Shown: positions 9,340 through 35,917 of the stretch, piece after piece
How positions within the stretch are numbered: position 1 is the first letter of the stretch
Layout of the letters: each line of letters opens with the position of its first letter
Assembly (NCBI RefSeq): GCF_947487805.1
Contig: NZ_CANKXW010000002.1
Location: 124,001 to 188,000, forward strand
Length of the DNA: 64,000 nt
Reading direction: 5' to 3'
From: an uncultured Tateyamaria sp.
GTDB lineage: Bacteria; Pseudomonadota; Alphaproteobacteria; Rhodobacterales; Rhodobacteraceae
The notes under the pieces: model-generated
Seen by the model: only the letters and a program-made list of their open reading frames with translations
Told to the model about the DNA's origin: nothing
The model's database searches: none
Made by a program: the position numbers and the translations under genes

Positions 9340-9416
<77 letters not shown>

Positions 9417-9471
9417 TTCTTCTTTGTTTTCGGCAACGACGCATGATCCGCACGGTATCCTGGCGGCAAGT

Positions 9472-11223
9472 TCAGAAACGGACCTCGGTGAAGTCGCCCG
9501 TTGTGATTTCCATGCGCGCCTCGCGGCGTTGGCCGTCTGGACCAATGTGCACAAGGATATATGACCCGTCCGAAATCGACTGGCGCACGGCATCCCCGGT
9601 CAGAGCGGCGAGTGCCCTGCCCGACGCATCCTGCAATTCGAACGAGCCGCCCGCTACAGGTGCTTGTGCCTCGAACCAGCCGGGCGTCACCACGACGCGA
9701 ACATCCACAGGCTGCACACCGCTGGGCACGACAAAGGACAGGATATGCCGCCGCGCGCCTTCGACCGTGATACCGTAGTTGCCGGGGTCCAGACTGACCG
9801 CGCTTTGTCGCTGGGTGAGTGGTTTGGTGACGCCAGAGGAATCCACGAGCACGACAGACGGGCTGTAGGGCAGCAAATCCAATGTCGGCTGACGCACGTC
9901 AAGTTCGATAGCGACCGAACGGGGCGTCGTTCCCGCCGCCGCGCGAGAGAAGTCCAGCGCCGCAGTTGTGGTGTCGTCAAAGCGCACGTTGACCGGGACC
10001 GTTTGCGTCACTCCGCGGGCGCTGCCTTTTACGGTATAAGTGCCTGCCATCAGCACAAAATCGCGGTTCAGCTGTGCCGCCCCTCCCGGCAACAGGTTGC
10101 GGCCACTGGCATCGATGATCTCCAGCGCGTCCAACTGGTTCAGCGGCTGCCCGTTGGCCGTCGCGGTCAGTTCTATTCGGCCCGCCTCGATGGAAAACAC
10201 GATGTCAGCGTCGGTCTGTACATCGCGTTTCGTCCGCCATGTGTTCTGTCCATCCGTCAGGACAAAGTCATAAACGCCTTTCGATAGCGGCAGGCTGCTT
10301 TGTGCCGGGCCTCCGGAAGCGAGCGTGCGAGAATTTGCGGGATAGGCCTGGAAGGTCATGCCGATCAGGTCAATTGTGCCTGCGTTCAAAAGATCAGGCG
10401 TCGTGCTGGTCACCTTGGCCGTGACGGACACGGTGTCGAGAAAATCCTTGATCGTTTTTTGTGGCGTATCGCCGCCCGGATCGTGACTGTCCGTCTTGGC
10501 CGGGACACAATCGAGGACATCGAAAACAAGATTGGAGCTGGGGATTTCCAGGATCCTGATTTCAACACTGCCCCCGGCATCCGCAAGAAAGTTCAGGTTG
10601 GGCAGTATCTGTTCGCAGACGGTTTGGTCCGGTGGCGCGCAGTTGATGTCTTCGAAGTCAGAAAATGCGGCAATCTGATAGCGTCCGCCCTTGCCGTGTT
10701 CGGCAATAATGGATTCCAAAGCCATGTTGATCGCCGAGCCCTGCGGGGTCATGCCGCCACCGGGCGTGCCATTGGGCAGTCCGGATATGTAAGACTTGAG
10801 TCTATCAAACGTCCCGGATGTCGGAGCGGCAAAACCACCTGTAACCGACTTGATGTCTTTGCACAGAGGGCCGGTTTGCGGGTACTCGGCGGAATTGTTG
10901 AACTCGCGTTGCGCGGCAGGCTTGCGTTGCTCGCGGCGCAGCGTCTCGACAAAGTTTGTCTCCGCACCGAAAATCAGAACCTCGGTTGGAACGGTATCAC
11001 CAAGGTCTTCGAGTTGGTCAAAATACTCCTCCGCGAGCGCCATCGCTTCGTTCCAGCGGCTGCCTTCGTTCTGAGGATAGCTGTTGCGCCGCATGCTGCC
11101 GGACGCGTCGAGGATCACGACCCGTGCGTCCAAGCGTTGGCTCTGTGCTGCGATGGCTTGCGGGCTCGCAACCATGGTTGCGAGCGCCATGGACGGAAGG
11201 AGTCTTTTCCAGAAACGGGTCAT
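9472..11223 (-). CDS. Exported von Willebrand factor A domain protein
   Basis: A 583-residue protein with a signal peptide (about 1-26, ending AIAA) followed at once by a vWA domain: VVILDASGSMRRN carries the complete MIDAS metal site (DASGSM, 39-44), with a GGGMTPQGSAINMALESI segment supplying the conserved Thr and an AAFSDFEDINC strand. After about residue 270 come several beta-rich segments that look like repeated immunoglobulin- or carboxypeptidase-regulatory-like modules; no membrane anchor is seen at the C-terminus. Its ATG overlaps the stop of the upstream exported protein, so the two form an operon diverging from the tubulin-like operon. vWA domains bind partner proteins through a divalent metal; here the partner may be the other vWA protein or the membrane proteins of the system. 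The partner is inferred. Confidence 0.8.
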   Translation of the reverse strand: MTRFWKRLLPSMALATMVASPQAIAAQSQRLDARVVILDASGSMRRNSYPQNEGSRWNEAMALAEEYFDQLEDLGDTVPTEVLIFGAETNFVETLRREQRKPAAQREFNNSAEYPQTGPLCKDIKSVTGGFAAPTSGTFDRLKSYISGLPNGTPGGGMTPQGSAINMALESIIAEHGKGGRYQIAAFSDFEDINCAPPDQTVCEQILPNLNFLADAGGSVEIRILEIPSSNLVFDVLDCVPAKTDSHDPGGDTPQKTIKDFLDTVSVTAKVTSTTPDLLNAGTIDLIGMTFQAYPANSRTLASGGPAQSSLPLSKGVYDFVLTDGQNTWRTKRDVQTDADIVFSIEAGRIELTATANGQPLNQLDALEIIDASGRNLLPGGAAQLNRDFVLMAGTYTVKGSARGVTQTVPVNVRFDDTTTAALDFSRAAAGTTPRSVAIELDVRQPTLDLLPYSPSVVLVDSSGVTKPLTQRQSAVSLDPGNYGITVEGARRHILSFVVPSGVQPVDVRVVVTPGWFEAQAPVAGGSFELQDASGRALAALTGDAVRQSISDGSYILVHIGPDGQRREARMEITTGDFTEVRF

Positions 11224-12461
11224 CAGCGCAGATCCAGTTCAGCGAGCGGCAGCGACGCCGATTGGCAATAGTGGCGCGACACAGACACAATCAGCGCGTC
11301 CCGTGGCGAAGAGGGATCGCTGAGCTTCATGTCAAAAGCACCGCCTGGCCTGCACCCGGCCTGCGATTGCAGCTCCAGCCGCGCGGCATATCGCGCAGGC
11401 GCTTGTCGGTGTGGCGTCGGAGTCGCGCCCGGTGCCAGAGCGAATGAACCAATATGGGCGACCACATCCATACCGGGCAGACGCGCCGGACCGGACAAAA
11501 GCAGATCGCGTAGCGCGGGCGCCTTGGGATCGGCCACAAGGTGAACCGGCGTCGTGTCCAGATGGCTGGCAACACCGGCGAACTGAGGCAGATTTCGGCA
11601 TGCTGTCACGCGGCTGCGATGGGCCAAGGCCCCCGGTACGTCGCAAACCGCCGTACTGCCGTTCAAACCGGCGCTGCCAAATGGCACCATCACGATGCTG
11701 TCGCCAAAGGGACATTCCGGCATGGCGACGCCACGCGTCAGAACGTTGGAACGCCGATCCGGACTGCCGGTAACCACGGTAGACAACGCCGACATACCCG
11801 CGTCCGTCGGTGCCAGACCACCCAGTGGAGGCAGAAAAAAGAACTCCAGATCGACATAGCCCGGGAGCAGTTTCTGCGCATTGCGCCCCTCATGTACGCA
11901 AATGGCCGGCCGCTCCGTTTCGACCACCCGACCCGCGGAGTCTTCGTTTTCGGTCACCCAGTCCTGGGCAAAGACATGCAAAGCCACCCGCTTGGGCACG
12001 GGTTGCTTCCTGTTGAAGGGCCAAATGCCCCGGCCTTGCACCATGCCGGTGTTATTGATCACATCGTGAAACCGGTCGCGCAGGTCGACCAACTCGAACC
12101 CGGCGCTTGCCTGCCCGGCCCCGGTGCGCACCTGATCAAGCAGGTCCTTGAAAACGCTCTGGCGGGAAAGATCGCGGCTGGTGTCCACGCCCGGATATAC
12201 CTCGACGCTGGACCGCCGCTCATAAAGAAGCACGGTTTCCCGCGCAGGTTCCTCGCTTTCGATTTTTGCAAGGCTGTCGACCATCGCGCTGATGGCGTCC
12301 TGCCGGGCCTGGATCGGCTGGATCTCGGCGAAATGCCCGGTGTCGATAAAAACAATCCGTAAATCGAGGTTTCGCGGTTGTGCAACTGCAATACTGGCAG
12401 ACCAAAGAACGGCGCACGCCACAAAAACTGCACGCAAAGACGCTCTCAATAAAACCAACAT
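11223..12461 (-). CDS. Exported protein of unknown function, first gene of the vWA operon
   Basis: About 412 residues: a hydrophobic signal (AVFVACAVLWSASIAVAQ), then a mature part beginning NLDLRIVFIDTGHFAE. The strand followed by D-T-G and a helix with evenly spaced acidic residues recalls the first part of a vWA fold with a lost MIDAS site, but this is only a shape argument. Six or more cysteines (for example AICVHEG, MPECPFGD, TAVCDVPG, VTACRNLP) fit an oxidised periplasmic protein. The start is uncertain: the ATG at 12461 is given, while a GTG at 12488 would add nine residues; neither has a good ribosome site. It overlaps the downstream vWA gene by one base. I recognise no family. Confidence 0.7.
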   Translation of the reverse strand: MLVLLRASLRAVFVACAVLWSASIAVAQPRNLDLRIVFIDTGHFAEIQPIQARQDAISAMVDSLAKIESEEPARETVLLYERRSSVEVYPGVDTSRDLSRQSVFKDLLDQVRTGAGQASAGFELVDLRDRFHDVINNTGMVQGRGIWPFNRKQPVPKRVALHVFAQDWVTENEDSAGRVVETERPAICVHEGRNAQKLLPGYVDLEFFFLPPLGGLAPTDAGMSALSTVVTGSPDRRSNVLTRGVAMPECPFGDSIVMVPFGSAGLNGSTAVCDVPGALAHRSRVTACRNLPQFAGVASHLDTTPVHLVADPKAPALRDLLLSGPARLPGMDVVAHIGSFALAPGATPTPHRQAPARYAARLELQSQAGCRPGGAFDMKLSDPSSPRDALIVSVSRHYCQSASLPLAELDLR

Positions 12462-12658
12462 TGCTATACCCAGATAGATTCTCTGCACCGTGCCAAGTTC
12501 TGTTTAAGCATGCAAGATTTCAAACGGCGCAACAAAGAGATTGCCAATCTTGTCTAAGATCGGCGGCAGGAACCAAAGTTTTTGGGATCAGGACTTGTCA
12601 AATTTTCGTCAATATTGCTTCCTCAAGGGGAGTTGGGCATCGGAGTGAGGGATTCTTT
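12462..12658. promoter_or_regulatory. Divergent promoter region with overlapping palindromes
   Basis: About 197 bases between the exported-protein operon and the tubulin-like operon. AGATTG-C-CAATCT is a perfect palindrome at 12538-12550, overlapped by ATCTT-GTCT-AAGAT at 12547-12560. The octamer CAATCTTG (12545-12552) recurs as its complement CAAGATTG at 29733-29740 in the other divergent region of the same block. A common regulator is a reasonable guess. No promoter hexamers stand out, though TTGTCA at 12595-12600 is a candidate -35. Confidence 0.45.
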
Positions 12659-15600
12659 ATGGCGACTGACAACAATTTTCGTCCAACTCTGCTTGTCGGC
12701 GTTGGCGGCACGGGATCCATCATCGCAGAACAGATCATGGAGCAGGCGCTTGCTGCTGATGCGTCATTGGGCAACTGGATCCGCATTCTTGTTTTGGACA
12801 CGGATGCAAATGATCTGGGCAAATTGAAAAACCTGACTGATCGCTCGCAATATCAGTTTTCAAAACCGGAAACCGTGTATCGAATTCTGGAACGTAATCC
12901 GTCTATTGAGACGGATTGGTGTTACAGCCGAAATGATCCCGAAATGTCCCAAGTGGTTCTGGGCAAATCTCTGATTGAGGGTGCAGGCCAAATCAGGATC
13001 CTGACCCGGATGGCGCTGCATGACAGTTTCGTCAATGACAACCTTTTATCGCGCATGGAGGATATCCTCGGGTCACTGACGACGCATGATGATGATCAGC
13101 GGTTCGGCGGCGCAGTGCACGTGCTGATGCTGGGATCGCTCGCAGGTGCGACCGGCTCTGGATCCTTCACTCAGGTGGCACTGGCGTTGAAACAGGCGGC
13201 CCGCAACCGATCCGTTCATGCGACGGTGCGCGGCGTGTTCCTACTGCCCGATGTCTATGCGCGCAGTGGCGCGTTGCCGCGCACGCAGGTGCCCAACGTT
13301 TTGGCCAATGGCTATGCCGCGCTCAAGGAACTGAACGCGATCAACGTTCGGGCGCAACTGCCGCAACGCAAGGCGAATTTTTCGTTCGAATACCTGCCCG
13401 GCCATGACCTCAAGGACGGCAATTCGCCCTTCGAGGCGGTCACCTTGCTGGACTACGAGAACTCCGAAGGCGGATCGATGGGCCGCAACCTCAACGCGTA
13501 TCTGCGCATGGCGGCGCGGTCCGGCTACCTCTTGGTGTTCTCGCCACTCGGCGCAAGCTATGGGTCTGTCACGATCAACGATGTGCGCCAACAGATCGGC
13601 GCAGTCGCAAATGGCAGCACGAACCTGTATTCCGGGATCGGCGTGTCCGCGGTGAACTATCCGCGCGACAGTATGCGGCGTTTCCTTGGACGCAAATTGG
13701 TTATCGAGAACCTCAAGGGCGACTGGATGCGGCTCGACAATGCCTATCGCAGTCAGGTCGCGCGTTTTAAACGCGAGCAGGCCGCAGGTCAGACAGCCGC
13801 CGAAGAACCGAAACAATCCGAGTCCTTCATTCGCGGCCTGTCGCAACTGGCCCAGGAAGAACCCAGAATCCCATTCTTCCGCGAGAATTATGACTACCTC
13901 TTCCCCGAGGTCGAGGACGAGATGACGCGCGAGCGCAAGATCAAGCCACGCCACATTGCCTACCTTGATGCGTTGACCGACTACATATCGCGGCAATTCT
14001 GGAGCGAGGGCGACACCGCGCAAGTCAAGTCGCGTGCATCCATGGATGAAAGCGCGCTGCTGGAAAGCGACAGCCTGGTCGATACCGTGCGTCGGCAAGA
14101 AGCAGACCTCGACAGCGACTTCCGCGTCGTTGACGCCGCATTGCAGAAGCGGCCAGAGGATTATTTCATCAACACGCAAATCACGGCAGATGGCGTCGGA
14201 CCCGGCGAGTGGGCAGCGCACCATGTGCAAAGCTATATCGTGGAAAACGCGCCGCATCCTGTCGGCGTGCGTGCGTTCCTCTATCTGGTGCAAAAGGAGA
14301 TCGCGGAGCGCCGAGCGAAACTCGACCCGCGCGCGCAGCGCCTCAAGCTGTTCCGCATCGCCAACATGTTCCGCGAAGAGGAAGAGATCTCTGCCACCAA
14401 CAACCGCCCCACATCCCGAGGCGCGCCGCGCGTAAGCGACCACGCGACCAAGGCGGATGAAGGCGGATCGGTTCTCAACAAGCTGACCGGACGCAAGCGC
14501 AAGGCCTTTGCCCAGGACTATGTCGAGTATTTCAACGCCTCCCTGACGTCGATGCGAAACTATGTCGACATCAGTATCGAAGCAAAGATGCTGGATCAGG
14601 CCGATGCGGAGATTGCCGCCTTGATCCGCGTGTTCGAAGGGTTGTTCACGGAAATTCAGGACATCATCTTATCCCTCGAAAACGATGTCGAAAAAGAGCT
14701 CAAGCCCTATGATCCGAGCACCGGATTTTCGGGCGACGCCTATGTCTACGCCAACCGCGCCTGCAAGGAAGATGCGTGGCAAAAGCTGAGCCAGAACGCC
14801 ATGGGGCTCAAGCTTGATGACGGCGTGAACATGCAGCTTGTGCGTTCCGTATATGACAAGCACCGTTCGGACCGGGTTGATCGGAAACAAAGCGATTTCA
14901 GTCAGATCAACGCACTTTTCCGGCGGGAAATTGTTGAAGGGTTCGGGCAAAAGACCGTGGATACGGATTTCCGGTCAGCATTCGAGATGACGGTCATCGA
15001 TGCCATTCGGGCGCAATGCGCCGTGGAAGATGCCGAAGCGATCCGGCTGGCAGAGGAGCGTAACGAGGACCCACCACGCCCGGCGTCTGTTGAGGATCGG
15101 CTCAAGGCAATTGTGGACCGCGCGGCAAAACAATCACAGCCTTATCTGGCACTGTCGCGCCCTGATTCAGACGGGACACCGATCAAGTTCTGGACGTTGC
15201 ACCCCGCCTGTGAAGACGCGCTGAACGATGAAGCGTTGTTTAGCGAGATGTTCAATTCGCAGGACGGCGATCGTCCTATCGTTGAACCGAACTTTTCCCG
15301 GTACGAGCTGATCTGTGTGAACCTGCGGGTGAATGTGGAATTGCCGCATCTGTCCAAGCTGGCCATGGCAGACAGCGCCAATGCATCGTCGGTGCATGCC
15401 CAGACCGAAGGGCGGCTGTCCCAAGCCTATCAGGAACTGGTCGACCGGATGCTTGATCCCAAGCGATCTTCGGGTGCGGGTGCGGAAATCACGCCCCATC
15501 TCGACAAAAGCTGGCACATGCCCGGCGCCTTGCCGGAAATCCACCGGGAACTGGAAGGCAAGATGCAGGTGGATGTTGCGCGCGGCTATGCGATTGCCCG

Positions 15601-16144
15601 CCTTCACGATCTCATCAAGCTATACCGTGACGGCGGCGTCCCGGTCGCGCAATTCTCGACCGTCGGTTTCGGTCTGCCGAACTCGTTTGACGAGGAGCTG
15701 GCACAAAGCCATGATCCATGGACCGTGTACCAAAGCTTTGCGGCGAATATGCCCTATGTCGGCGGGGCCGTTGCCTTCTGGGAGAAGGTCAAGTCAGGGT
15801 CCAATTCCGGGTTGCAGGCACATCCGTCATTCAAGAGCCTCACCGATCCCGAGGGCCTTATGCATCTGGCCATGCCTGCCACGGTCCGTAACGACACGGC
15901 GGACGACCGTGACGCGGCCGTGCGTGACAGCTTCAAGGCGTGGATTGGTCTGATTTCCGAACTCGTGGATGCGCAGGAAACCGGCATGACCAACCGTGGT
16001 CGCCGGATCGCCAAACAGGAATGCGTCGACAAGGCGCGTCAGGATTTGATGGCGTTCCTGCGTGAGGAGGAATTCGAGCCCGTTCATATTCAGATCGTCG
16101 AGCGTTTGATTGCCCAGGCTTACGATGACGTTTTTGCGCAATAG
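12659..16144 (+). CDS. Giant tubulin/FtsZ-like GTPase
   Basis: A 1161-residue protein with an N-terminal tubulin-superfamily nucleotide-binding domain: T1 loop GVGGTGS (14-20), T3-like LDTDAND (47-52), and the tubulin signature GATGSGS (163-169) followed by a helix and a RGVFLLPDVY strand. FtsZ has GGGTGTG at this place. From about residue 400 on, a long, largely helical region of unknown fold follows, with no membrane segment. The ATG at 12659 has GGAGTGAGG upstream; in-frame codons before it do not resemble a protein. Proteins of this kind (Tubulin_2-type) occur with vWA proteins and GTPases and have been proposed to build filaments for membrane remodelling. It heads a five-gene operon. Filament formation here is inferred. 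Confidence 0.85.
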   Translation: MATDNNFRPTLLVGVGGTGSIIAEQIMEQALAADASLGNWIRILVLDTDANDLGKLKNLTDRSQYQFSKPETVYRILERNPSIETDWCYSRNDPEMSQVVLGKSLIEGAGQIRILTRMALHDSFVNDNLLSRMEDILGSLTTHDDDQRFGGAVHVLMLGSLAGATGSGSFTQVALALKQAARNRSVHATVRGVFLLPDVYARSGALPRTQVPNVLANGYAALKELNAINVRAQLPQRKANFSFEYLPGHDLKDGNSPFEAVTLLDYENSEGGSMGRNLNAYLRMAARSGYLLVFSPLGASYGSVTINDVRQQIGAVANGSTNLYSGIGVSAVNYPRDSMRRFLGRKLVIENLKGDWMRLDNAYRSQVARFKREQAAGQTAAEEPKQSESFIRGLSQLAQEEPRIPFFRENYDYLFPEVEDEMTRERKIKPRHIAYLDALTDYISRQFWSEGDTAQVKSRASMDESALLESDSLVDTVRRQEADLDSDFRVVDAALQKRPEDYFINTQITADGVGPGEWAAHHVQSYIVENAPHPVGVRAFLYLVQKEIAERRAKLDPRAQRLKLFRIANMFREEEEISATNNRPTSRGAPRVSDHATKADEGGSVLNKLTGRKRKAFAQDYVEYFNASLTSMRNYVDISIEAKMLDQADAEIAALIRVFEGLFTEIQDIILSLENDVEKELKPYDPSTGFSGDAYVYANRACKEDAWQKLSQNAMGLKLDDGVNMQLVRSVYDKHRSDRVDRKQSDFSQINALFRREIVEGFGQKTVDTDFRSAFEMTVIDAIRAQCAVEDAEAIRLAEERNEDPPRPASVEDRLKAIVDRAAKQSQPYLALSRPDSDGTPIKFWTLHPACEDALNDEALFSEMFNSQDGDRPIVEPNFSRYELICVNLRVNVELPHLSKLAMADSANASSVHAQTEGRLSQAYQELVDRMLDPKRSSGAGAEITPHLDKSWHMPGALPEIHRELEGKMQVDVARGYAIARLHDLIKLYRDGGVPVAQFSTVGFGLPNSFDEELAQSHDPWTVYQSFAANMPYVGGAVAFWEKVKSGSNSGLQAHPSFKSLTDPEGLMHLAMPATVRNDTADDRDAAVRDSFKAWIGLISELVDAQETGMTNRGRRIAKQECVDKARQDLMAFLREEEFEPVHIQIVERLIAQAYDDVFAQ

Positions 16145-16165
16145 CGCGTGGGATAACCCAATTTG

Positions 16166-18328
16166 ATGAGTGAGATTTCCACCAGGACCATTGTCATAAA
16201 CGGCGACGACGGTTGGCCCTTTCGCGATTTGCTGTGGTGCCACGGGCTGGACCTGTATCCGTTGGACACTGGGGTGGATATTTTTGACGTCGTCCCCCTG
16301 CCCGGAGACGATGGCGGACCAAGCGCGCGAAACTACCAAACGGTGATCGGCAATTTTCCGGAGGATTATTCGAACGAGCCGGACACATTGCTCGAAGAGA
16401 TTGATGAGACGGTTGCCGGGCTTGCGGATGCTGAGAACCGCGACAAGTACCTGTCGATTGCCCTTGTGATCAATCGCGCCGATTTCGAAGCGCTTGCGAC
16501 CGCCAAGGACGCGGATGACCCGGCTGTGTCCCAAGGCGCGATGTCCGGCTACCTCGCCTTGCGGAGAGCCATGCAGGCGGTGGAAAACCAAGGCGACCGC
16601 GACGATCCGACAAACGTGATCGGTCGCATTTCGACACGGGTCTGGTTCAGCCTGATCGTACGGGACGCAGGCGCAGACAAGGCAGATGAGCGCAACGGCG
16701 AAAAGGTCATGGCGTTCATGAAACAGAACCGCATGGGGCTGGGTCATATCTTTTTCCTGTCGGAAAGTCGCGCCCGCGAGGCATCCGACAAGACGCTGGA
16801 CCGCCAATTTGCCAAGTTAAGGGTGCTGATCGACATACTGCGACAGTTCCACACCGATGCCGTCCAGAAAAACATGACGACAGAGTCCCTGCGCGGCTTT
16901 GGTGCGGACACGTCCAAGCTTGTCTGGGTGCGCAGCAACGACAGCGAAGCGACCTTGTTGGCCAAGGCAGATCTGTTGCGGCGTGGGCTGGTGTTCCGGA
17001 TCGCTGCGATGGACCGGGAAAACAAGAAGAAAAATTCAACATGGCGCGAAGAATTTGAATCGCTCAAGAAAGAGTTCAATGCGCTCCTGCCGGGTTTGCA
17101 GACAGACCAGCAGGCGGCTGATGACGCATCCGAGGCATATAACGAAGTCACGGCGCTGAACGCCGTTGTGACGGCTGCCAAGAATGCAAACGCAGCAAAT
17201 CGCGACGTCACTGACCAGAACCTCGATGCCGATGAACAGATCAGCCGGTGTATTTCAACATTGGCAAACTCCAAGAGAACGTTGTTTTACAGCGCCAATG
17301 CGGCGCGAAATATTGAAACCAGCGCCGCCGAATACAATGCCGCGCTGAGCCACGCGCGTGACATGTACGGGCATTCCCTGTCCGCAGAGATCGATCGCTT
17401 GCGCGCTGATCTGGAGCACAAACGGATCGAGCTTCATGCGGTGATGGACCGCATAACGCTTCCCAGCGACAATGAAGCGCTGCAGACCGTGAATACGTAT
17501 TGCGCCAACGTTCTGGATGTCGGATGCGCTGCCGCCGCCTCGGAAATCAAAGAAGCGCGCGCCGTTGTTGCCAAACAGGATGCATTGAACGAAACCATTT
17601 GGGCGAGCATGGCGTCGTCGCGCGCCACGGCGGTCGCGCGGCTTCTAGACACGGAAAACCGGCTTTTGAGGTGGCGCTCGACCATGTTGGTCATCGGCAT
17701 CGTGTCTTTCGTCGCTCTCTTGCCAATCTTGTTGGTGCCGATCATTCGGTCGATCGCGGGATCGGGTGCAATTGTTCCCTTTGGCAATATGTTGGGGCCC
17801 ATGGGGGTCATTCTTGGCTTCAGCGTCATCATATCCTTGGCCTTTGCCGTCGTTCTGGCCCTCCGGCTTCGCGCGCGGCGCAATGCCGCCCTAGATCTGG
17901 TTACCGATGCGATGGATCGTCACTACAAAGAGTTGCGATTGTGCTTTGCCAGCCTGTTGCGGATCGCCGTCAATCGGTGGCGCTTGTCCTTGCTCAACAC
18001 CACCCAACAGTTCCTTCGACCGGCATTTCGGCCCGGTGACGAGTCGCCTGAGCGGTTTGCCAACAAGCTCGCCATCGGCCAAGCCCGGCTGAGTGCTGCA
18101 TCCTATGAGGTTTCACCCAAAACGGATCAGGCCCTTGATCAGGCGTTCAACCAGAAAAGCGATCTGTCGGACAAGATAACGTCGCTCCTGGTGGCGGATC
18201 TGCCGCTGGAGTCTGCACACCCGTTGCTTATCGAACCCGGACATTTCGGAGGAACCGAGTTCACGCTGGCAAGCACCAGTAGCCTTGCGCCAATCTCGGT
18301 GAAGCTGGGAGTTGTTGGTGATGAGTGA
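16166..18328 (+). CDS. Two-TM, coiled-coil-rich protein of unknown function
   Basis: A 720-residue protein. Residues 1-240 look like a globular alpha/beta domain (TIVINGDDGWPF, LSIALVINRADF, RVWFSLIVRDAG and HIFFLSESRA form a series of buried strands), 290-500 are strongly helical with coiled-coil character, two membrane helices lie at about 506-530 and 547-570, and a helical tail ends the protein. The topology suggests both ends in the cytoplasm. It follows the tubulin-like gene by 21 bases and overlaps the next gene by 8 (ATGAGTGA), so it is translationally coupled. An in-frame TTG precedes the ATG by one codon. I recognise no family; a membrane receptor or anchor for the tubulin-like protein is a guess from position. 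Confidence 0.75.
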   Translation: MSEISTRTIVINGDDGWPFRDLLWCHGLDLYPLDTGVDIFDVVPLPGDDGGPSARNYQTVIGNFPEDYSNEPDTLLEEIDETVAGLADAENRDKYLSIALVINRADFEALATAKDADDPAVSQGAMSGYLALRRAMQAVENQGDRDDPTNVIGRISTRVWFSLIVRDAGADKADERNGEKVMAFMKQNRMGLGHIFFLSESRAREASDKTLDRQFAKLRVLIDILRQFHTDAVQKNMTTESLRGFGADTSKLVWVRSNDSEATLLAKADLLRRGLVFRIAAMDRENKKKNSTWREEFESLKKEFNALLPGLQTDQQAADDASEAYNEVTALNAVVTAAKNANAANRDVTDQNLDADEQISRCISTLANSKRTLFYSANAARNIETSAAEYNAALSHARDMYGHSLSAEIDRLRADLEHKRIELHAVMDRITLPSDNEALQTVNTYCANVLDVGCAAAASEIKEARAVVAKQDALNETIWASMASSRATAVARLLDTENRLLRWRSTMLVIGIVSFVALLPILLVPIIRSIAGSGAIVPFGNMLGPMGVILGFSVIISLAFAVVLALRLRARRNAALDLVTDAMDRHYKELRLCFASLLRIAVNRWRLSLLNTTQQFLRPAFRPGDESPERFANKLAIGQARLSAASYEVSPKTDQALDQAFNQKSDLSDKITSLLVADLPLESAHPLLIEPGHFGGTEFTLASTSSLAPISVKLGVVGDE

Positions 18329-24570: not shown

Positions 24571-24593
24571 CCCATAGCAAGAGATATTATTCC

Positions 24594-26510
24594 ATGACTG
24601 ATATTGCAGAACGCACCGGCCCCCGTTTTACCACCTCGAACCTGATCCTGTGGGGGACCATCGCAGGCTCGATCGCGCTGTCCATCGTGTCGGCCTACGA
24701 GACGTGGCTGGGGCTTGATGATTTCATGCCGCAGGGGTTCATCGGCGCGATCATGGCGTTCATCCTGACCTTTGGAGTGCAGGTCATCCTGTTCGCGATC
24801 TCTTGGTCCATCGCGGAATATGCCCGCGACGGCTTCAAGGCCAATCTGTGGCGCATCTCGATCTGGATCATGTGCGCCTTCTTCTCGGGGTATTTCTCCT
24901 TCTACGGCTTTTTCCAGGGCACCGGCGGGCGCGATGATGTCGAACGGTCGAACGTCATACAAACCGAGCGCAGCCGCATCCTGAACGGCATTCAGGAGAA
25001 CCTCGTGACCGGCTTGAACACCCAACACCAAGACCAGCTTGTCAACAACGCGACATACCGCACCTGGATCGAAGAACTGCGCAGCGTGATCGACGCCGCG
25101 AATGGCGCGCAGGCCCAAATCGAGGCGAACTCACGGGTAGAGAGCGCGCGCCTGCGGGATCAGCAACGGGAATTGCGAGACGAGCGGGATACGCTGACCA
25201 ATGAACGCAGCCGGTTTTCGGTCAGCTCGCAAACAGGGGCGCAGCGCCTGACTGATTTGCGTCGCGAGGTGAACGCGCTTGAGGCGCAACTGGCCACCCA
25301 AAGCCGTGAAGTACAGCGTCTGGAAATTGAGCGGGACGCCTTACAAAGGCAGTTTGAGGTTGAAAGCTCTGACGGCGTTGGCCCTCGCGCGCGAGCTATT
25401 CTAGCGAACCAGCAGACCAATTCCGCCGCCTTGACCGCCGCAGAAACACTTTTGTCTGGCACAGAAAACAGCCTGGAAAGGTTGCGCCCGCAATTGCAAA
25501 ACGCGACTGCCACGGCACAGGGCGGCGTTGCCGAGCAGCGTATCAACGAAATCGACAGCCGCCTTGACGGGATCAAGGACGAAATCGCACTTATCGATAC
25601 GAAAATCGAAGACCTGTCAGACGGGATCGACTTCGACTTCCAAACGCAGTCCGCAACGTTGACCCGGCTTCAGTCTAACCTCGAAGGGCAGGACTACGAA
25701 GCTTATGCCGGGCTCCTAGACCAATGTTCGACCCTCAAGCAGCAGTTGACGGATGCAAATGTTGGGCAGTCGACAGCAGGCGTCACCTGCGCCAACAGTA
25801 CCGTTCTCGCCACCGTCAATGCGCTCAAATCCGTCCAGTCAAATATTGGGGCATATGATGAACAGTGTCTGAGCGCCCAACCTGCACCCGAAAAGCGTGA
25901 AGGTCAGGAATTGTTCACGTTGGACCCCCTGATTTCGCATCTGGAAGGATGTGTTCAATACGAACCCGACCGTAGCGAACGCGATGACCTTGTCACTTAT
26001 ATCGGCAGTATGAAAACGGGTCGCGGTGACTCGGCAAAACCGATCAATCAGGCAGCGGTCGCTCTGTTCAAGGACCAACAGGGCAACGCGGTCTTGTCTT
26101 TTGTCTTTGCAGCTATTGTCGACTTGCTCGTTCTTCTGTGCGCTCTTGTAGGCAAGAATGTGGGCCTGCCGGAAAGCGTCCGCGCGATTGACAAGCTGAT
26201 CAACCTGATGCGCAAGCCCCAACCGGAGCGGCCTGGTGTGGAAGCGATTGCCCCCCTGCCCGAAGACCGGCAACAGTTGGACATGCTGGATCCTATCATC
26301 AACAGATTGATCCGCGATGGTTACGCCGAATTCGAGGTGTCAGATATCAACGACAGCTCTCAATTGGTGATGCTGAAAGGCGCGCGTCAGTACCTGTCGC
26401 ACCTGCGTAGCATGGAAATCTCGGAACAGCGGGTCAATGCGCCGATCAAATCGGAAACGGAGACATCGCGCACCCGAGGAGGTCGCCGCCGCCCGCAGGA
26501 ACCTATCTGA
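24594..26510 (+). CDS. Four-TM coiled-coil membrane protein, DUF4407-like layout
   Basis: A 638-residue protein. Three membrane helices lie at about 16-36, 49-73 and 84-106; then a long heptad-rich region (about 150-360, dense in RxxE and LxxQ patterns: RLRDQQRELRDERDTLTNER); a segment with four cysteines (about 370-460); a fourth helix at about 500-520 (FVFAAIVDLLVLLCALVG); and a basic C-terminal tail. The cysteines and the odd helix spacing place the coiled coil outside the cytoplasm. The layout is like DUF4407 proteins, though I cannot confirm homology. It starts 23 bases after the vWA gene, with an AAGAGA site, and is the last gene of the five-gene operon. Confidence 0.75.
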   Translation: MTDIAERTGPRFTTSNLILWGTIAGSIALSIVSAYETWLGLDDFMPQGFIGAIMAFILTFGVQVILFAISWSIAEYARDGFKANLWRISIWIMCAFFSGYFSFYGFFQGTGGRDDVERSNVIQTERSRILNGIQENLVTGLNTQHQDQLVNNATYRTWIEELRSVIDAANGAQAQIEANSRVESARLRDQQRELRDERDTLTNERSRFSVSSQTGAQRLTDLRREVNALEAQLATQSREVQRLEIERDALQRQFEVESSDGVGPRARAILANQQTNSAALTAAETLLSGTENSLERLRPQLQNATATAQGGVAEQRINEIDSRLDGIKDEIALIDTKIEDLSDGIDFDFQTQSATLTRLQSNLEGQDYEAYAGLLDQCSTLKQQLTDANVGQSTAGVTCANSTVLATVNALKSVQSNIGAYDEQCLSAQPAPEKREGQELFTLDPLISHLEGCVQYEPDRSERDDLVTYIGSMKTGRGDSAKPINQAAVALFKDQQGNAVLSFVFAAIVDLLVLLCALVGKNVGLPESVRAIDKLINLMRKPQPERPGVEAIAPLPEDRQQLDMLDPIINRLIRDGYAEFEVSDINDSSQLVMLKGARQYLSHLRSMEISEQRVNAPIKSETETSRTRGGRRRPQEPI

Positions 26511-26520
26511 ACCGACCATA

Positions 26521-26546
26521 CCGCGCCGCTGATGCATGCGGCGCGG
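26521..26546. terminator. Strong hairpin between convergent operons
   Basis: CCGCGCCGC pairs perfectly with GCGGCGCGG around an eight-base loop TGATGCAT. There is no T-tract on either side, so it may act as a barrier or a processing signal rather than a standard terminator. It lies in the 53 bases between two convergent coding regions. Confidence 0.5.
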
Positions 26547-26563
26547 CACAGGTTCCGTTGGGT

Positions 26564-28492
26564 TCAATCGTGCGTTTTGCCAAACAACTCGTCCGTGCTG
26601 GCATAGAGTTCAGAGAAAAACTCGCCGAGGCCGTAATCCCACCAGATCGCCTGTGGGTTGTGCAGTTTTGCATCCCGTTGCTGATAGCTTTCGAACCCGT
26701 TCAACCACACGAAAAATTCGTTGATTAACTCGTCATTGGGAACGTCCAGCTGAATGTTTCGCCCTTCGCGGCTGGACAGGTATTTCGCCAGATTGCGCTC
26801 GCGGCGGGCAATGTCGTGGATTTCACCGATGAGACGATCGACACCAACCTCTTCGATATAGTTACGGAACATCGTGCGGTACATGCTGCCGCCGTTGTCT
26901 GTATACACGCCTAGATATGGCAAGGGGTCATGGGTGAACATGCGGTCCAGTTCATCTCGCAATTGATTTGGATCCCGTCCTGCCGCCGCAAAGTCGATGA
27001 TCAGTTCCAAAAGGTCCCGAAAGCTGCCGACGATGATCCGATCTGCAACGTCACTACGCGGGTAGTGGTCAAAGGGTGGTTCCATGATGAGGCGCAACCG
27101 CGCGTCCAATTGGAAAAACCCTAGGGCGATCTCACGCAGCTTTTCTCGACTGACCGGCGGCGTTTCACCTTGCGGCAAGTCCCGATACTTGAGCAAAGTT
27201 GGCCACTGGATCGTGTCGAGTTTGTAAAGCGCCTGCGCTGCTTCGGGCGGGCTCGCTGCACTTCGGCCACTGCTTTGTATACCGTACATCGCTCCGAAAC
27301 CGGCCTCGGCGAGGTCGTGCCCTTCGAGGTCCAGCACAATTTCGTCGACGCCGTCATCGCTGTCAGAAACTGGTTCGGCATGTGCTGTATTTGGTTTTTC
27401 AATCTTGCCTGTTATGGGCACCTTTACGAAATCGTCTTCTTCCACGTACGCCTGAACCGTCGACGCATTCGATGCGTCCTGCTCACCTTCGACCTCTACT
27501 GAATTGGCGAACTCTTCCGGCAGGTGTTCTGGCCAGTAATTGTCGGCTGTCAATGTGTTGGGGCGCCGTGCATGAAGTGCCTGGTCAAATGTCTTGATAT
27601 GCCGCCACTCCGGTATGATCGGCGCCAGGTCGGATTGAACCGGCGGCGGAAACCAGACAGGCCGCGTGTCGTCAAACCCAAGAGGCGTCCCATGCGCAAT
27701 CTCTTCGGTTGCCCGTGTATCCAGCGAAATGAAGAAACCACCCCCCGCGGGCCCGGTAATGTCGTCGCTGACACCGCTGGCAAAGGACAAAAACCGCCCC
27801 TGAGTGGCAAATGCAGACCCATCCCGCACACCATCGGAGAACCCAGACGTCTCGAGTTCATCCGCGAGCCAATCTGCCACATCCACCTGTCCCGGCGCCT
27901 CAACACTGTCACCTTCGACTGATGGGCACGGCAACCGCACACGGGAGATTGAGACAATATCGTCGAGTGATTTCAACCCGCGATCCTTGAAACCTTCGGC
28001 CGGCAGATCAGCTCGGCGAAGGTCCGGACAATTCAGTCTATTCCGGTCCTCCTGTTTTTCGGAAACCGGCAAACCCCAACACCGATCACCATATTGCGTG
28101 GTAAAGAGCATGCGCGCGGCCCACCGGATCAATGCCGGTTCCCACTTGTCTTTGACAATCAACGCAGCGCAGTGCGTGAAACGCCGACCACCCTGCCCCT
28201 TGCCGCGTTCCGGTCGCGCCTCGATCCGGGAAAACACGCTAAGGTGCTCGCCCTTCAGGTACACAGGTGCGAACACAAAGGCGCCGCCCTTCATCCGCCG
28301 GGCGTCGATCTTTGTAACGGGCGGGTTCTCGGGAAAAAACAGACTGGTCGTGCACAGTTGCTGATACCGTTCGGGAAAGTCTTCGGTGGAAGCGACCAGT
28401 CGCGCCTCTACGCCAGGCTTGATCGGACCATCGGGTCCTTTTCCGCGCAAAAGTTTGCTGTAGATGCCCAAATGGTACTTGTACTGTTCCAT
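26564..28492 (-). CDS. Unknown cytoplasmic protein paired with the GTPase
   Basis: A 642-residue soluble protein beginning MEQYKYHLGIYSKLLRG. The ATG at 28492 is chosen for the GAGGGG site eight bases upstream, inside the stop region of the GTPase gene; a longer reading from 28612 overlaps that gene heavily. The N-terminal 150 residues form an alpha/beta-looking domain (CTTSLFFPENPPVTK, GGAFVFAPVYLKGEHLSVFSRIEA), a low-complexity acidic linker follows (about 330-420), and the C-terminal half is helical. Two-gene units of a P-loop GTPase and a large partner are known as GTPase-associated proteins (GAP1 type) in bacterial conflict systems; I suspect but cannot show that it belongs there. It is 11 bases downstream of the GTPase. 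Confidence 0.7.
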   Translation of the reverse strand: MEQYKYHLGIYSKLLRGKGPDGPIKPGVEARLVASTEDFPERYQQLCTTSLFFPENPPVTKIDARRMKGGAFVFAPVYLKGEHLSVFSRIEARPERGKGQGGRRFTHCAALIVKDKWEPALIRWAARMLFTTQYGDRCWGLPVSEKQEDRNRLNCPDLRRADLPAEGFKDRGLKSLDDIVSISRVRLPCPSVEGDSVEAPGQVDVADWLADELETSGFSDGVRDGSAFATQGRFLSFASGVSDDITGPAGGGFFISLDTRATEEIAHGTPLGFDDTRPVWFPPPVQSDLAPIIPEWRHIKTFDQALHARRPNTLTADNYWPEHLPEEFANSVEVEGEQDASNASTVQAYVEEDDFVKVPITGKIEKPNTAHAEPVSDSDDGVDEIVLDLEGHDLAEAGFGAMYGIQSSGRSAASPPEAAQALYKLDTIQWPTLLKYRDLPQGETPPVSREKLREIALGFFQLDARLRLIMEPPFDHYPRSDVADRIIVGSFRDLLELIIDFAAAGRDPNQLRDELDRMFTHDPLPYLGVYTDNGGSMYRTMFRNYIEEVGVDRLIGEIHDIARRERNLAKYLSSREGRNIQLDVPNDELINEFFVWLNGFESYQQRDAKLHNPQAIWWDYGLGEFFSELYASTDELFGKTHD

Positions 28493-28503
28493 TTGCGCGC
28501 CCC

Positions 28504-29655
28504 TCAGTCCGAGATATGCGCCAACGCGCGGTCTGCGGAAAATGACACCGGACCGGTGATGCGCCCGGTGAGCGCATAGAGCAGCGGTGGTGCGATATTG
28601 AACGGGCGCCACAACGACCGCGCCTGATCATCCTTCAGCGCGATCGGAAAGTGGTCCTTGTATTTCGACAAGTCTATGTCGTCATAGACGTCAATCGGTT
28701 CCGCCGCATAATCGTCAATCGGTTCCGCCGCATAGTCGTCAATCGGATCCACGGCGCGCGTCAACAGTCCGGGCGATTTTGACCATGGATAGAAATTCGG
28801 GCTGCCCGAATTCCGCACAAAACCGTAGGTCGACACCGGAAACACGCGCATGTCGAACGTGTCGTCCTTCAGGCTGTACGCGAGAAGCGACCTGAAGGTG
28901 GACAGAACTGCATTTCCACGAAAAAACCCATCGTAACGGGCCATCTCTGTTGCGCTTTCAGCCGCATAGACGCCATCGTTCATAAACGCGCGTTCGCATT
29001 TGGTGAAACACAGGGCGATACGCTGAAGCTTGGGCAGCGTGCCCAGCTTTTCGCGTTTGCGGCGTAGAGATTCCGTAATTTCACCCAGAAACCGCTGCGA
29101 AATGGCCGCTTTTGTCCCTTCATCATCAGACATCAGCGGCATGAACAGAACAAAGCCGCTGGAATCGTCCATTCCGTCCCGGTATTCTTGCCTTCGCGCC
29201 GTCGCATCCTTGTCATCTGACTGGATCATCTCGACCGGGGCCGCATCGGCGCCGCGCCCGTCCACGATACTGAATTCCAGTTCTTCCTCGCGCGCGGGCG
29301 CGGAGGACGACAGCGATGGAATGCCCAACCAGCCGGACTTCTGTACTTTTGCTTGCGCAGGTTGATGGAACGACATCTTGATGCCGTATCGACGGGCGGC
29401 GTTTGTTCCCTCGAGAAGGTACTCCTTGCCGGCCAGTAGAGATGCATAGTGCGTTCGAAGGTAGTCAAACGCGCGCTCTTCTTCGCTCCCGCTGGTAAAC
29501 ATCTCGCTTACAGAAAAATTCTGAACAAAATCGGGGCCATCCTCGAGATCCAGCCAAGACGGATTGTGGTTCAGAAATGCAGTAAGAAGGTTCGTCTTGC
29601 CCGACGCCGCTTGCCCCAGAAGGGTAATCGTCGGTAACTTCTTGTCTTTCTTCAT
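28504..29655 (-). CDS. P-loop GTPase of the tubulin-like/vWA block
   Basis: A 383-residue protein with the G-domain motifs in order: G1 GQAASGKT (14-21), G3 IVDGRG (Asp132-Gly135, the DxxG motif), G4-like FTKCER (T218-K-C-E221 in place of NKxD) and a G5-like FPVSTYG. A variant G4 motif means the base preference is uncertain. A short octapeptide repeat (PIDDYAAE, twice and a third partial) lies at about 303-325. There is no membrane segment. A GTPase is an expected partner of tubulin-like/vWA sets. It is the first gene of a two-gene minus-strand operon starting in an AT-rich divergent region. It has no strong ribosome site. Confidence 0.8.
   Translation of the reverse strand: MKKDKKLPTITLLGQAASGKTNLLTAFLNHNPSWLDLEDGPDFVQNFSVSEMFTSGSEEERAFDYLRTHYASLLAGKEYLLEGTNAARRYGIKMSFHQPAQAKVQKSGWLGIPSLSSSAPAREEELEFSIVDGRGADAAPVEMIQSDDKDATARRQEYRDGMDDSSGFVLFMPLMSDDEGTKAAISQRFLGEITESLRRKREKLGTLPKLQRIALCFTKCERAFMNDGVYAAESATEMARYDGFFRGNAVLSTFRSLLAYSLKDDTFDMRVFPVSTYGFVRNSGSPNFYPWSKSPGLLTRAVDPIDDYAAEPIDDYAAEPIDVYDDIDLSKYKDHFPIALKDDQARSLWRPFNIAPPLLYALTGRITGPVSFSADRALAHISD
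28690..28750 (-). repeat. 24-base tandem repeat within the GTPase gene
   Basis: Two exact or nearly exact 24-base units (28690-28713 and 28714-28737) and a partial third encode PIDDYAAE-PIDDYAAE-PIDVYDD. The number of units may vary between strains by slippage and would change the length of an acidic surface loop without breaking the frame. Confidence 0.85.
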
Positions 29656-29806
29656 GGCAACCGAGCGATCTTATTGAACAATGTTTAATTTGTTCCTTGA
29701 GTATGGGCAATTTACCATAATTATAAAAGGCGCAAGATTGTCAAAACCAAACGTGTATCCTAAGTTTATTTAATATTTAGACAATCTGTCAACGAACGCT
29801 GGTGCC
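29656..29806. promoter_or_regulatory. AT-rich divergent promoter region with inverted repeat
   Basis: A 151-base region between the GTPase and the orphan gene, much richer in A and T than anything around it (runs such as TTTACCATAATTATAAAAGG). AGATTGTC at 29735-29742 is the exact complement of GACAATCT at 29780-29787, 37 bases apart. The core octamer CAAGATTG (29733-29740) matches the palindrome region at 12538-12560. A shared repressor site is a hypothesis. Confidence 0.45.
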
Positions 29807-31900
29807 ATGGCTCTGTACGAATATCTCTGGGATGATAGGGCGAACTGTCTGCTGGTTTACGTGGACGCCCCCGAGGATATCGACGTCGTCACAGTCGAAC
29901 ATTTGCAGGACGGAGAATTCCGCACCATCGGCGTCGGAATACCTGGTGTGTCTGGTCAGGGCGGGTTCGAGATCTTTGCCGTTGCATTGCCCGAAGATGC
30001 CGGAATTGCGCCCGTTATGCTCACCGTCAGTGGCGTCAAATCAGCCAAGTCTTCTGGTGGTCCGCGCCCAACCGAGTTGATCGAGCGCATCACGCTTGAT
30101 GCACATGCAAATTTCGATAAGGCAGATCGAAAGCACTGGATCGTCGAATACGCAAACGACACGCCGATGATCAACATACTGGATGCAGACGAAAAAGTGC
30201 CGACAAGCACGATTTCATCGGTATTGGCGAGCACGCGCCACGGCCAGACCATCGGTCCTGCACAGAACTCGTCCGGCGAAGGTCAGGGCGGCACGTTGCG
30301 CGCGCGCATCTTTCAGGACGAAAGCGGCGAGCACGGCGCACTCGAAGTCGAGATAGTCGCGGCGGACGACGAATTGCTGCCTGAAACGCAAGTCAGCTTT
30401 TACACGCTGTCGGCCGTTGACCATGTTCTGCCCGCTCTTAAATCCGGTCGCATGGACCTTGAGACGCTCAACAATGCGGACATTGCTGTGTTTGGTGGCG
30501 TGCGCAACGGCACGCGCCAGCATGTGTTTCAAACCCCTTCGGACAGCAACGACGAGAACAGCAAGCACATCGCATTTCTGGATCGCATCGCCATTGCGAC
30601 ACGGCCACCGTCACGCTTTATCTTCGAACGCTCCGCGACCCAATCGCATCCTATTGGCAAGAAGGGCGCGATGATGATCGTGAACGGCAAGGATGACTTT
30701 CCCTATGTCGACGATGGCGCCTTGCTTGACGTGTTCCTCGATGCGCAGCCTGCAATAACAACGGCTAGCAACATGGATTTCGTTCGGGCCTTTGCGGACG
30801 CTGGCAAACCGATGCAGCCTGACGACCTGGACTTTGCGAACGAGCTTACAGCCGCCGTCTACAGTGAGTTGGCTCACCTGATCGCCGACACGCATCAAAG
30901 CAATGCGGCACATCTTGCGCCCGCAGGTATCAATCAGTTCCTGAGTGCACCCACTTATTTCGGTATGCTTGCCGCCTTGGATCCCGCTCGGATGCCAACC
31001 TTCGGGCCCCGGCGTTTGGCGTCTGAACTGGCGCGCGGGACAGAAACCGAAGTATTGCAATACCTCGCCAGTATCGTGTTGCAGACGGAAGCGAAAGATC
31101 AGCCCCGCATCAAACTATGGCTCGATAGTATCGATGCCTCTCAATCTGCATTCCGGGCCATCACCCTACCCTTCCATGAGCAATCATTGACAGCCATTGC
31201 GGCCGGTATTGACGCCTCTCACATCGAACTTGGTCAAGTCGACCAGCTTTCTGACCTCGTTGACATCAGTATGCGGCGCCAAATCCTTGACGTGCTAACA
31301 GCTGCCGAAGTTCTGCCAGTCGAATACGCCGCGCAATTTATCAGCGCCGCATCCGATGACATCGGCGAAGACGCGAGCGCGGTGCATGAGCTCGTGGACG
31401 AGACGCTTGATTTTTGCCAACGCGCCTTTGACGCAAGCGGTCTGCATCGCGGCGGCGCGCTCGAGACGCGAGATTTGTTTGCCTTGGCGCAGGTCACTGT
31501 GCCCAAACGCGCCGCACGGACGGTCGTGGACACGGCGCAAACCAGTTTGCTGGTCAAACTGACAGAAAGCCTTGCGGGTGAGACGATCTCACTGTGGGAA
31601 TACCCGGTGGATGCTTTGCTGAACCGCATCGCGACGTTTCTTTACGAACGGTTCAAAGCGGATTTTGACCGAATCCAGTCCATTGTTCGCAGCGCAAACC
31701 TCGTGGACCCTTTGCAGGGGACACCTGGGACCGTGGTGCAATTCTCACCGAACCAGACAGCCTCCTTGCATGATGAAGCGCCGGGGTTCCGCCGCCGTCC
31801 CAGCCATGACGAGATGGCGTGGCTGAGCGCGATTGACGGTGACCCTGTGCTCATTGCCGAGTGCAAAGCGGACTTGCTGCGTCAGCTTGACGTCGCCTGA
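29807..31900 (+). CDS. Protein of unknown function at the end of the block
   Basis: A 697-residue soluble protein. Residues 1-130 look like a beta-sandwich (YEYLWDDRANCLLVYVDAPEDIDVVTVEHLQDG), 160-215 hold a second beta-rich segment, and 330-640 are helical and repetitive in feel. No signal peptide, membrane helix or catalytic motif could be recognised. It has its own promoter region, diverging from the GTPase, and ends five bases before the convergent peroxidase. Base composition resembles the rest of the block. It may be an adaptor or effector of the system; this rests on position only. The ATG at 29807 has no strong ribosome site. Confidence 0.7.
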   Translation: MALYEYLWDDRANCLLVYVDAPEDIDVVTVEHLQDGEFRTIGVGIPGVSGQGGFEIFAVALPEDAGIAPVMLTVSGVKSAKSSGGPRPTELIERITLDAHANFDKADRKHWIVEYANDTPMINILDADEKVPTSTISSVLASTRHGQTIGPAQNSSGEGQGGTLRARIFQDESGEHGALEVEIVAADDELLPETQVSFYTLSAVDHVLPALKSGRMDLETLNNADIAVFGGVRNGTRQHVFQTPSDSNDENSKHIAFLDRIAIATRPPSRFIFERSATQSHPIGKKGAMMIVNGKDDFPYVDDGALLDVFLDAQPAITTASNMDFVRAFADAGKPMQPDDLDFANELTAAVYSELAHLIADTHQSNAAHLAPAGINQFLSAPTYFGMLAALDPARMPTFGPRRLASELARGTETEVLQYLASIVLQTEAKDQPRIKLWLDSIDASQSAFRAITLPFHEQSLTAIAAGIDASHIELGQVDQLSDLVDISMRRQILDVLTAAEVLPVEYAAQFISAASDDIGEDASAVHELVDETLDFCQRAFDASGLHRGGALETRDLFALAQVTVPKRAARTVVDTAQTSLLVKLTESLAGETISLWEYPVDALLNRIATFLYERFKADFDRIQSIVRSANLVDPLQGTPGTVVQFSPNQTASLHDEAPGFRRRPSHDEMAWLSAIDGDPVLIAECKADLLRQLDVA

Positions 31901-31905
31901 GAAGA

Positions 31906-34608: not shown

Positions 34609-34696
34609 GGCTCACCCAACGCGGACACTCACAAAACCGCTATATGCCATGCGGGTGTGGCGAAAGTTTGGCAGCTTGGTGTGTTAAATCCGAGAC

Positions 34697-35917
<1,221 letters not shown>

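Follow-up and report, generated by a model that had tools for sequence, protein, structure and literature searches.

Tubulin-like GTPases encoded beside von Willebrand factor A (vWA) and GTPase genes have appeared in print in two settings. Makarova and Koonin (2010; PMC2875224) proposed from gene context that FtsZl1 operons remodel membranes, a prediction repeated in a 2015 archaeal survey, while a reviewer, in comments printed with the paper, objected that FtsZ in the cytoplasm has no way to contact partners in the periplasm. Kaur et al. (2020; PMC7159879) placed tubulin-vWA-GTPase sets among conflict systems. Here we analyze ten genes, A to J, at positions 9472-31900 of a 64,000-nucleotide stretch (the window) of contig NZ_CANKXW010000002.1 from an uncultured Tateyamaria sp. 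(Rhodobacteraceae), built around a giant tubulin-like protein, C. The tubulin family and its vWA and GTPase company are already known. In the literature consulted we did not find a conserved core bearing a pseudohelicase, a split tubulin fold or the tRNA insertion described below, nor, in titles and abstracts, a membrane DUF1998 protein paired with a tubulin; both are weak evidence of absence.

The locus resembles the FtsZl1 (Tubulin_2) operons of PMC2875224 in that C joins an N-terminal FtsZ-like domain to an extended coiled coil and a helical C-terminal part, a vWA gene (F) stands in the operon, and a diverged P-loop GTPase gene (I) lies nearby, which does not imply kinship of I to the FtsZl1 GTPase family. 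It differs, as far as the operon descriptions in that paper go, in that E is not described there as a membrane pseudohelicase and in having neither an OmpA nor a kinase gene; Pfam gave no OmpA-family match among the ten proteins, OmpA being a feature of several FtsZl1 genomes and not a defining one. The families that Makarova and Koonin left unnamed (A1-A2 and B1-B9) may include D or E, and the C-terminal tubulin domain that they did not find is indicated here by a structure model of C. The predicted anatomy answers the reviewer objection, because D, E and G are membrane proteins and F joins a transmembrane (TM) segment to a cytoplasmic tail; TM segments are, throughout, hydrophobic segments from a Kyte-Doolittle scan. 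With the GAP1-N2 conflict systems of PMC7159879 the block shares a tubulin with a helical C-terminus, a membrane vWA protein and a GTPase with a large partner. In contrast to those systems, Pfam detected no GAP1-N, DO-GTPase or FNIII domain in the ten proteins (for FNIII, the non-vWA regions of F and A lay outside the structure models), and the descriptions of the systems there do not mention a multi-TM pseudohelicase.

A conserved core around the tubulin

An alignment scan for relatives returned 37 loci (numbered L; genomes are numbered G). On an Azospirillum ramasamyi plasmid, C is matched at 37% over 90% of the query, with D, E and F behind it in that order. Further alphaproteobacterial loci lie in Neomegalonema (twice), Methylobrevis, a fragment of a metagenome-assembled genome (MAG) titled Rhodobacteraceae (L011; 64%) and the MAG SSD5 (L010), titled Exiguobacterium profundum, whose genes look alphaproteobacterial despite that title. 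The other loci belong to one Myxococcales MAG, Actinobacteria, many Firmicutes and a few MAGs titled Proteobacteria. Iterated profiles found an F-type vWA protein in 34 of the 37 loci and E in 30; at each miss C lies at most 1.2 kb from the relevant contig end, and in SSD5 both E and F are in fragments. Gene order is C-D-E-F in the Alphaproteobacteria and F-C-D-E elsewhere. Between C and E, a single open reading frame (ORF) of more than 380 amino acids with two or three hydrophobic segments is present in 27 of 29 loci with a long E, the exceptions being one short ORF and one mispicked locus, where the profile search found D. As judged from sequence and gene order, these comparisons show a C-D-E-F set conserved across phyla. 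From the distribution across relatives we therefore regard C to F as the core, G and A/B as frequent in Alphaproteobacteria, and I/H, with or without J, as an accessory module. The original prediction, which had asked whether the tubulin keeps company with vWA and membrane subunits in other genomes, is borne out for C to F, and the recurrence of content and order places the block beyond chance. One relative (L006) is on a contig titled 'Bacteriophage sp.' whose other ORFs look bacterial by eye.

C matches the Pfam family Tubulin_2 (PF13809) over residues 12-346 and carries both the T1 loop GVGGTGS and the T4 loop GATGSGS. Across the 40 C proteins longer than 700 amino acids, the window's included, GGTG occurs within the first 60 residues in 36 and the T4 pattern in 37. 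An AlphaFold2 model of C (predicted local distance difference test score 81.2) gave structural matches to CetZ, TubZ and tubulin, the best by Foldseek being TubZ 2xka (E 1.1e-4). Pfam, model and structural matches together show computationally the FtsZ/tubulin fold that had been expected of the N-terminus, along with both motifs first noticed in it. The model has helices at 473-511 and 612-681 and is mostly helical up to 1159 save for some strands. C shares the tubulin/FtsZ fold with CetZ and TubZ, but it is about three times longer, and in the model an insertion seems to split its C-terminal domain, residues ~830-960 being predicted to complete the tubulin fold. A pattern scan of genome contigs with C alone gave 15 pattern matches and zero relatives, and sequence searches of the PDB with C, E, I and H profiles gave no meaningful match.

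The membrane subunits of the core

E has six hydrophobic segments, as had been claimed, and the alphaproteobacterial E profile matches the mostly Gram-positive one with a probability of 99.2% (E 2.4e-19, 605 columns), against 0.1% and 1.3% for the D-E and E-D controls. A model of the Microbacterium orthologue contains two RecA-like domains and a DUF1998-type C-terminus, and matches MrfA (E 2.6e-23), a DUF1998 superfamily 2 (SF2) DNA helicase (PDB 6znp, 6znq and 6zns). The guess that E is helicase-like thus holds on the orthologue, and the profile comparison carries to the window's E a predicted SF2/DUF1998 helicase fold without Walker A. Unlike MrfA, with which its cytoplasmic part shares the overall fold in the orthologue model, E is predicted to be membrane-tethered and lacks Walker A. 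Among 32 long E proteins (matches above 700 amino acids plus the protein of G1046, a genome of the same family), a loose Walker A pattern occurs in three, in L038 just ahead of the PFYRD stretch and in the other two at 1094 and 1350, these judged by position alone. P300, F301, Y302 and D304 are invariant in 24 of 24 E proteins (alignment A12).

An additional HExxH stretch is present in 19 of the 32 long E proteins. This metallopeptidase-like stretch lies inside E in most Firmicutes loci (L012-L014, L016-L018, L032 and others) and forms a separate gene in Actinobacteria and in one Erysipelotrichaceae locus, its Pfam matches being below cut-off. In the Gram-positive system it may act as a protease output.

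D ends in a hairpin that the scan scored as three abutting hydrophobic windows. It has relatives at E 8e-8 in L005 and at E 3e-9 in L010, and its OmpH match (E 0.28) is below cut-off. The alphaproteobacterial and Gram-positive D proteins, which reach 10% by hhalign, are linked by place and topology only.

F combines a signal peptide with one TM segment near residue 798 and a predicted cytoplasmic tail of ~125 amino acids; its relatives are 24-46% identical. Both metal-ion-dependent adhesion site (MIDAS) motifs that had been claimed are present, as DxSxS, in F and A. Of 34 F proteins above 650 amino acids, 33 carry the motif, L044 being without it in the first 130 residues. The proposal of a machine that spans the inner membrane stands insofar as hydrophobic segments predict it; of the claimed TM counts, six in E holds, the pair in D is the hairpin, and G shows three segments by scan with a fourth (~84-104) by eye.

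A rare insertion at a tRNA-Arg gene

The block occupies a tRNA insertion site, a feature absent from the original prediction. Of the 19 other genus genomes searched, 17 contain the upstream 5'-nucleotidase gene as a close copy, at 74-93% identity, and two have distant matches only; the downstream side was taken from 10 of those 17 (sister loci L072-L081), in all of which blastn matched the tRNA region. There, sufS follows the nucleotidase gene at 0.2-2.8 kb in seven stretches, and the other three contain no sufS match over the length taken. One of these sisters, G1113 (L072), has an empty site: sufS lies ~66 bp beyond the tRNA, and 201 bp, tRNA included, separate its nucleotidase and sufS matches, whereas 25 kb (9417-34703) separate the tRNA from the sufS side in the window. 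Flanked by a tRNA gene and missing from the same site in G1113, the insertion has these two marks of a tRNA-associated genomic island; no duplication of the tRNA end was found at its right junction. The site is variable across the genus, being empty in one sister and spanning 0.8-2.8 kb from nucleotidase to sufS in six of ten. The adjoining suf genes suggest that the block is probably chromosomal here. An animal-type haem peroxidase with a Hint domain (31906-34608) lies inside the same insertion.

With its own genome counted, C was found in 1 of 20 genus, 1 of 196 order, 2 of 394 family and 3 of 398 phylum genomes, two of the last being weak N-terminal matches. The block is inserted at tRNA-Arg and patchily distributed in the family.

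Accessory genes and coordinates

Every ORF was confirmed at the coordinates first assigned to it (Table 1); the original prediction counted nine genes, though its own list sums to ten. B and then A are read on the minus strand, overlapping by 1 nt. C-D-E-F-G follow on the plus strand with operon-like gaps of 21, -8, -89 and 23 nt (the start of F is uncertain). I and then H are on the minus strand, and J is divergent from I. Searches of all ten proteins with Pfam, PADLOC and NCBIfam gave Tubulin_2 in C as the sole match above a curated cut-off.

Table 1. Features of the gene block and its insertion site (window coordinates)
Feature	Position	Strand	Remarks
tRNA-Arg(CCG)	9340..9416	+	left edge of insertion; ARAGORN; blastn match in 10/10 sister-species stretches
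Insertion relative to sister genome G1113	9417..34703	.	carries A-J plus haem peroxidase
A, exported vWA protein, 583 aa	9472..11223	-	MIDAS DASGS; relatives L011, L048
B, exported protein, 421 aa, start uncertain	11223..12488	-	upstream of A; relative in L011
C, giant tubulin-like GTPase, 1161 aa	12659..16144	+	Tubulin_2 E 1.9e-40; AlphaFold2 model; CetZ/TubZ/tubulin matches
D, C-terminal two-TM hairpin protein, 720 aa	16166..18328	+	relatives L005, L010; place and topology elsewhere
E, six-TM N-terminus and degenerate SF2/DUF1998-type helicase fold (predicted), 1167 aa	18321..21824	+	profile link; orthologue model
F, signal peptide, periplasmic vWA and further region, one TM, cytoplasmic tail	21736..24570	+	MIDAS DTSGS; topology inferred
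G, multi-TM protein with long coiled coil, 638 aa	24594..26510	+	relatives in SSD5, G1046
H, large soluble partner, 642 aa	26564..28492	-	encoded 11 nt after GTPase I; relatives adjoin I in SSD5, G1046
I, P-loop GTPase, 383 aa	28504..29655	-	GQAASGKT; relatives in SSD5, G1046
J, soluble protein, 697 aa	29807..31900	+	divergent from I; slot occupied in G1046, G805

A scores below the Pfam cut-off for VWA_2 (E 0.0079) and has relatives at E 3.5e-41 (L011) and 2e-26 (L048); B has one in L011 (E 3e-25). A second vWA gene precedes C in the window, L005, L008, L009, L011 and G1046, and none was found ahead of it in L010 or L044. Because iterated A and F profiles drifted into all vWA proteins, the two are told apart by place and pairwise tblastn only. 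An 856-amino-acid G1046 protein with a vWA match (34% over 64 amino acids, E 0.01) resembles a B-A fusion by position and vWA alone, since the comparison of B with this positional counterpart was not significant.

G has relatives in SSD5 (E 4e-31 and 2e-35) and in G1046 (E 5e-28), the latter scoring four hydrophobic segments; SMC-like matches of G and D were taken as coiled-coil noise. The full G1 loop reported for the GTPase is present in I, as are DGRG/TK motifs, and I is 41% identical to its SSD5 relative and matches that of G1046 at E 3e-32. The H protein of G1046 is just 290 amino acids long and gives an N-terminal match (E 2e-6). Past C-D-E-F, G1046 carries G, a 709-amino-acid gene in the slot of J, then I and H; both G and the J-I-H segment are inverted compared with the window. 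In SSD5, a cluster of A, I and H near 0.45 Mb stands apart from C, at 3.50 Mb of 4.26 Mb, with an IS5-like gene, on our reading, beside both places. The I gene of the window also contains three 24-nt direct repeats (28683-28754) coding a DDYAAEPI-like repeat that is missing from two I relatives.

The GTPase pair is not the constant partner it had been taken for. Of six other tubulin-bearing genomes or records (one of them a plasmid only), SSD5 alone has I, with G1046 in addition; I matches occur in 4 of 394 family genomes, two with C (the window's own, G000, and G1046) and two without. One of the latter, G805 (L087; E 1.1e-12), has no tubulin, and no match to C or other window proteins was found within 17 kb around its I relative; strict co-occurrence of GTPase and tubulin was therefore rejected. 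The other, a G914 match to I (E 3e-5, residues 67-153), was taken as chance. Beside the I relative of G805 stand a divergent gene of up to 975 amino acids and three downstream genes without a Pfam match, perhaps a sister system with the same GTPase module. J's divergent slot thus holds a large gene in both G1046 and G805; sequence comparison linked J to neither, the match with the G1046 gene being not significant.

Discussion

We read the block as a machine of the FtsZl1 (Tubulin_2) class, carried on an island and anchored in the inner membrane, whose likeliest role, at a probability of roughly 45%, is not housekeeping but a surveillance of the envelope that ends in defence against phage or other invaders. 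In such a machine the metal-dependent vWA domains of F, and the exported A and B, would read an envelope signal in the periplasm, which could pass inward through the cytoplasmic tail of F, the hairpin of D and the TM helices of E. E would be a membrane-tethered dead helicase, a scaffold that binds nucleic acid or a partner; GTP-dependent assembly or disassembly of C, clustering the complex, would be the switch; G may brace the periplasmic side, and the I/H pair may be an add-on regulator. We lean toward defence because of the island, the rarity in the family, the plasmid copies and the defence neighbours of relatives. Among the latter, all three Thermaceae plasmid matches (L007, L082 and L083) have the order vWA, Tubulin_2, a ~680-amino-acid protein X and BrxL, with BrxL separated from X by an insertion sequence in one, and TIR proteins that pass the Pfam cut-off occur in 4 of 31 other loci, a count given without a background rate.

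Several observations weigh against a defensive role. Gut Firmicutes may carry many TIR genes in any case, and the Thermaceae tubulins belong to a distant branch, with 26-30% identity across a quarter of C. PADLOC gave only weak coiled-coil and P-loop matches among the ten proteins, no integrase was found among the eleven large genes (A-J and the peroxidase; small ORFs lay outside the scan), and the other large island gene, the peroxidase, is not a defence gene. The fold of E was predicted on the Microbacterium protein and not on the window's E, and the evidence of mobility covers the window island and the plasmid copies, not the Gram-positive ones. A more specific proposal, which we find rather doubtful, is that a split-fold tubulin polymer and a membrane-embedded dead DUF1998-type helicase would capture invading nucleic acid at the inner membrane, armed by periplasmic vWA sensors, with the attached HExxH metallopeptidase as output in Gram-positives and the G coiled-coil protein plus optional GTPase modules in Alphaproteobacteria. 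In Meiothermus, the vWA-tubulin-X-BrxL set also lies beside HmaC and a DUF1156 gene; the link of a Thermaceae tubulin to a bacteriophage exclusion (BREX) protein looks worth separate study.

Alternatively, filaments of C, held on the inner membrane by D, E and G, could deform it in a remodelling or vesicle machine tied to the envelope by the vWA proteins, which is possible though we would not wager on it. The Tubulin_2/FtsZl1 match, vWA and GTPase partners like those of the Makarova and Koonin operons, four predicted membrane proteins and a CetZ/TubZ-like fold, that of filament formers, all fit, but the proposal came from context alone and was contested in print by a reviewer, a membrane-bound helicase fold is unexpected in a shaping machine, and its rare, island-borne occurrence in the family speaks against a basic cellular role here. 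Another reading is a device in which E binds DNA at the membrane and a TubZ-like C moves or holds it. Plasmid-segregating TubZ as the best match of C, the MrfA fold of the E orthologue and the relatives on Azospirillum and Thermaceae plasmids speak for such DNA positioning, which nonetheless seems unlikely to us: the block is probably chromosomal here and lies on contigs of 4.26 Mb (SSD5) and 4.0 Mb (G1046), Pfam found no ParB- or TubR-like adaptor among the ten proteins, and periplasmic vWA proteins have no place in it. Least probable of all is a divergent GTPase-centric conflict system as in Kaur et al. (double GTPase, GAP1, tubulin and vWA), with I as the DO-GTPase and H as GAP1. The broad cast is the same and the GTPase gene is directly upstream of a large partner, but with 2-4 sequences per profile hhalign gave 0.3% for H against two GAP1-N1 proteins and 12% for I against four adjacent GTPases, and Pfam matched neither GAP1 nor DO-GTPase. 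GAP1-N2 was found in none of seven core-bearing genomes, a search that detected it in the control, Corynebacterium glutamicum; GAP1-N1 occurs in 2 of 150 phylum genomes and not in the window's own.

Our findings bear on the role of FtsZl1, open since 2010, and in particular on whether it forms filaments and what its C-terminus is; for the latter, the split-fold model of C gives a direct test. The near-constant, membrane-anchored pseudohelicase offers a mechanistic handle on the membrane subunits and connects the loci with the DUF1998 helicase fold. Should it prove defensive, the block would be a tubulin-based system without a strong match among the PADLOC 2023 models used. Bacteria from widely separated groups share a core of tubulin, adhesion-type sensor and membrane-bound dead helicase, which may serve them in detecting or resisting invaders.

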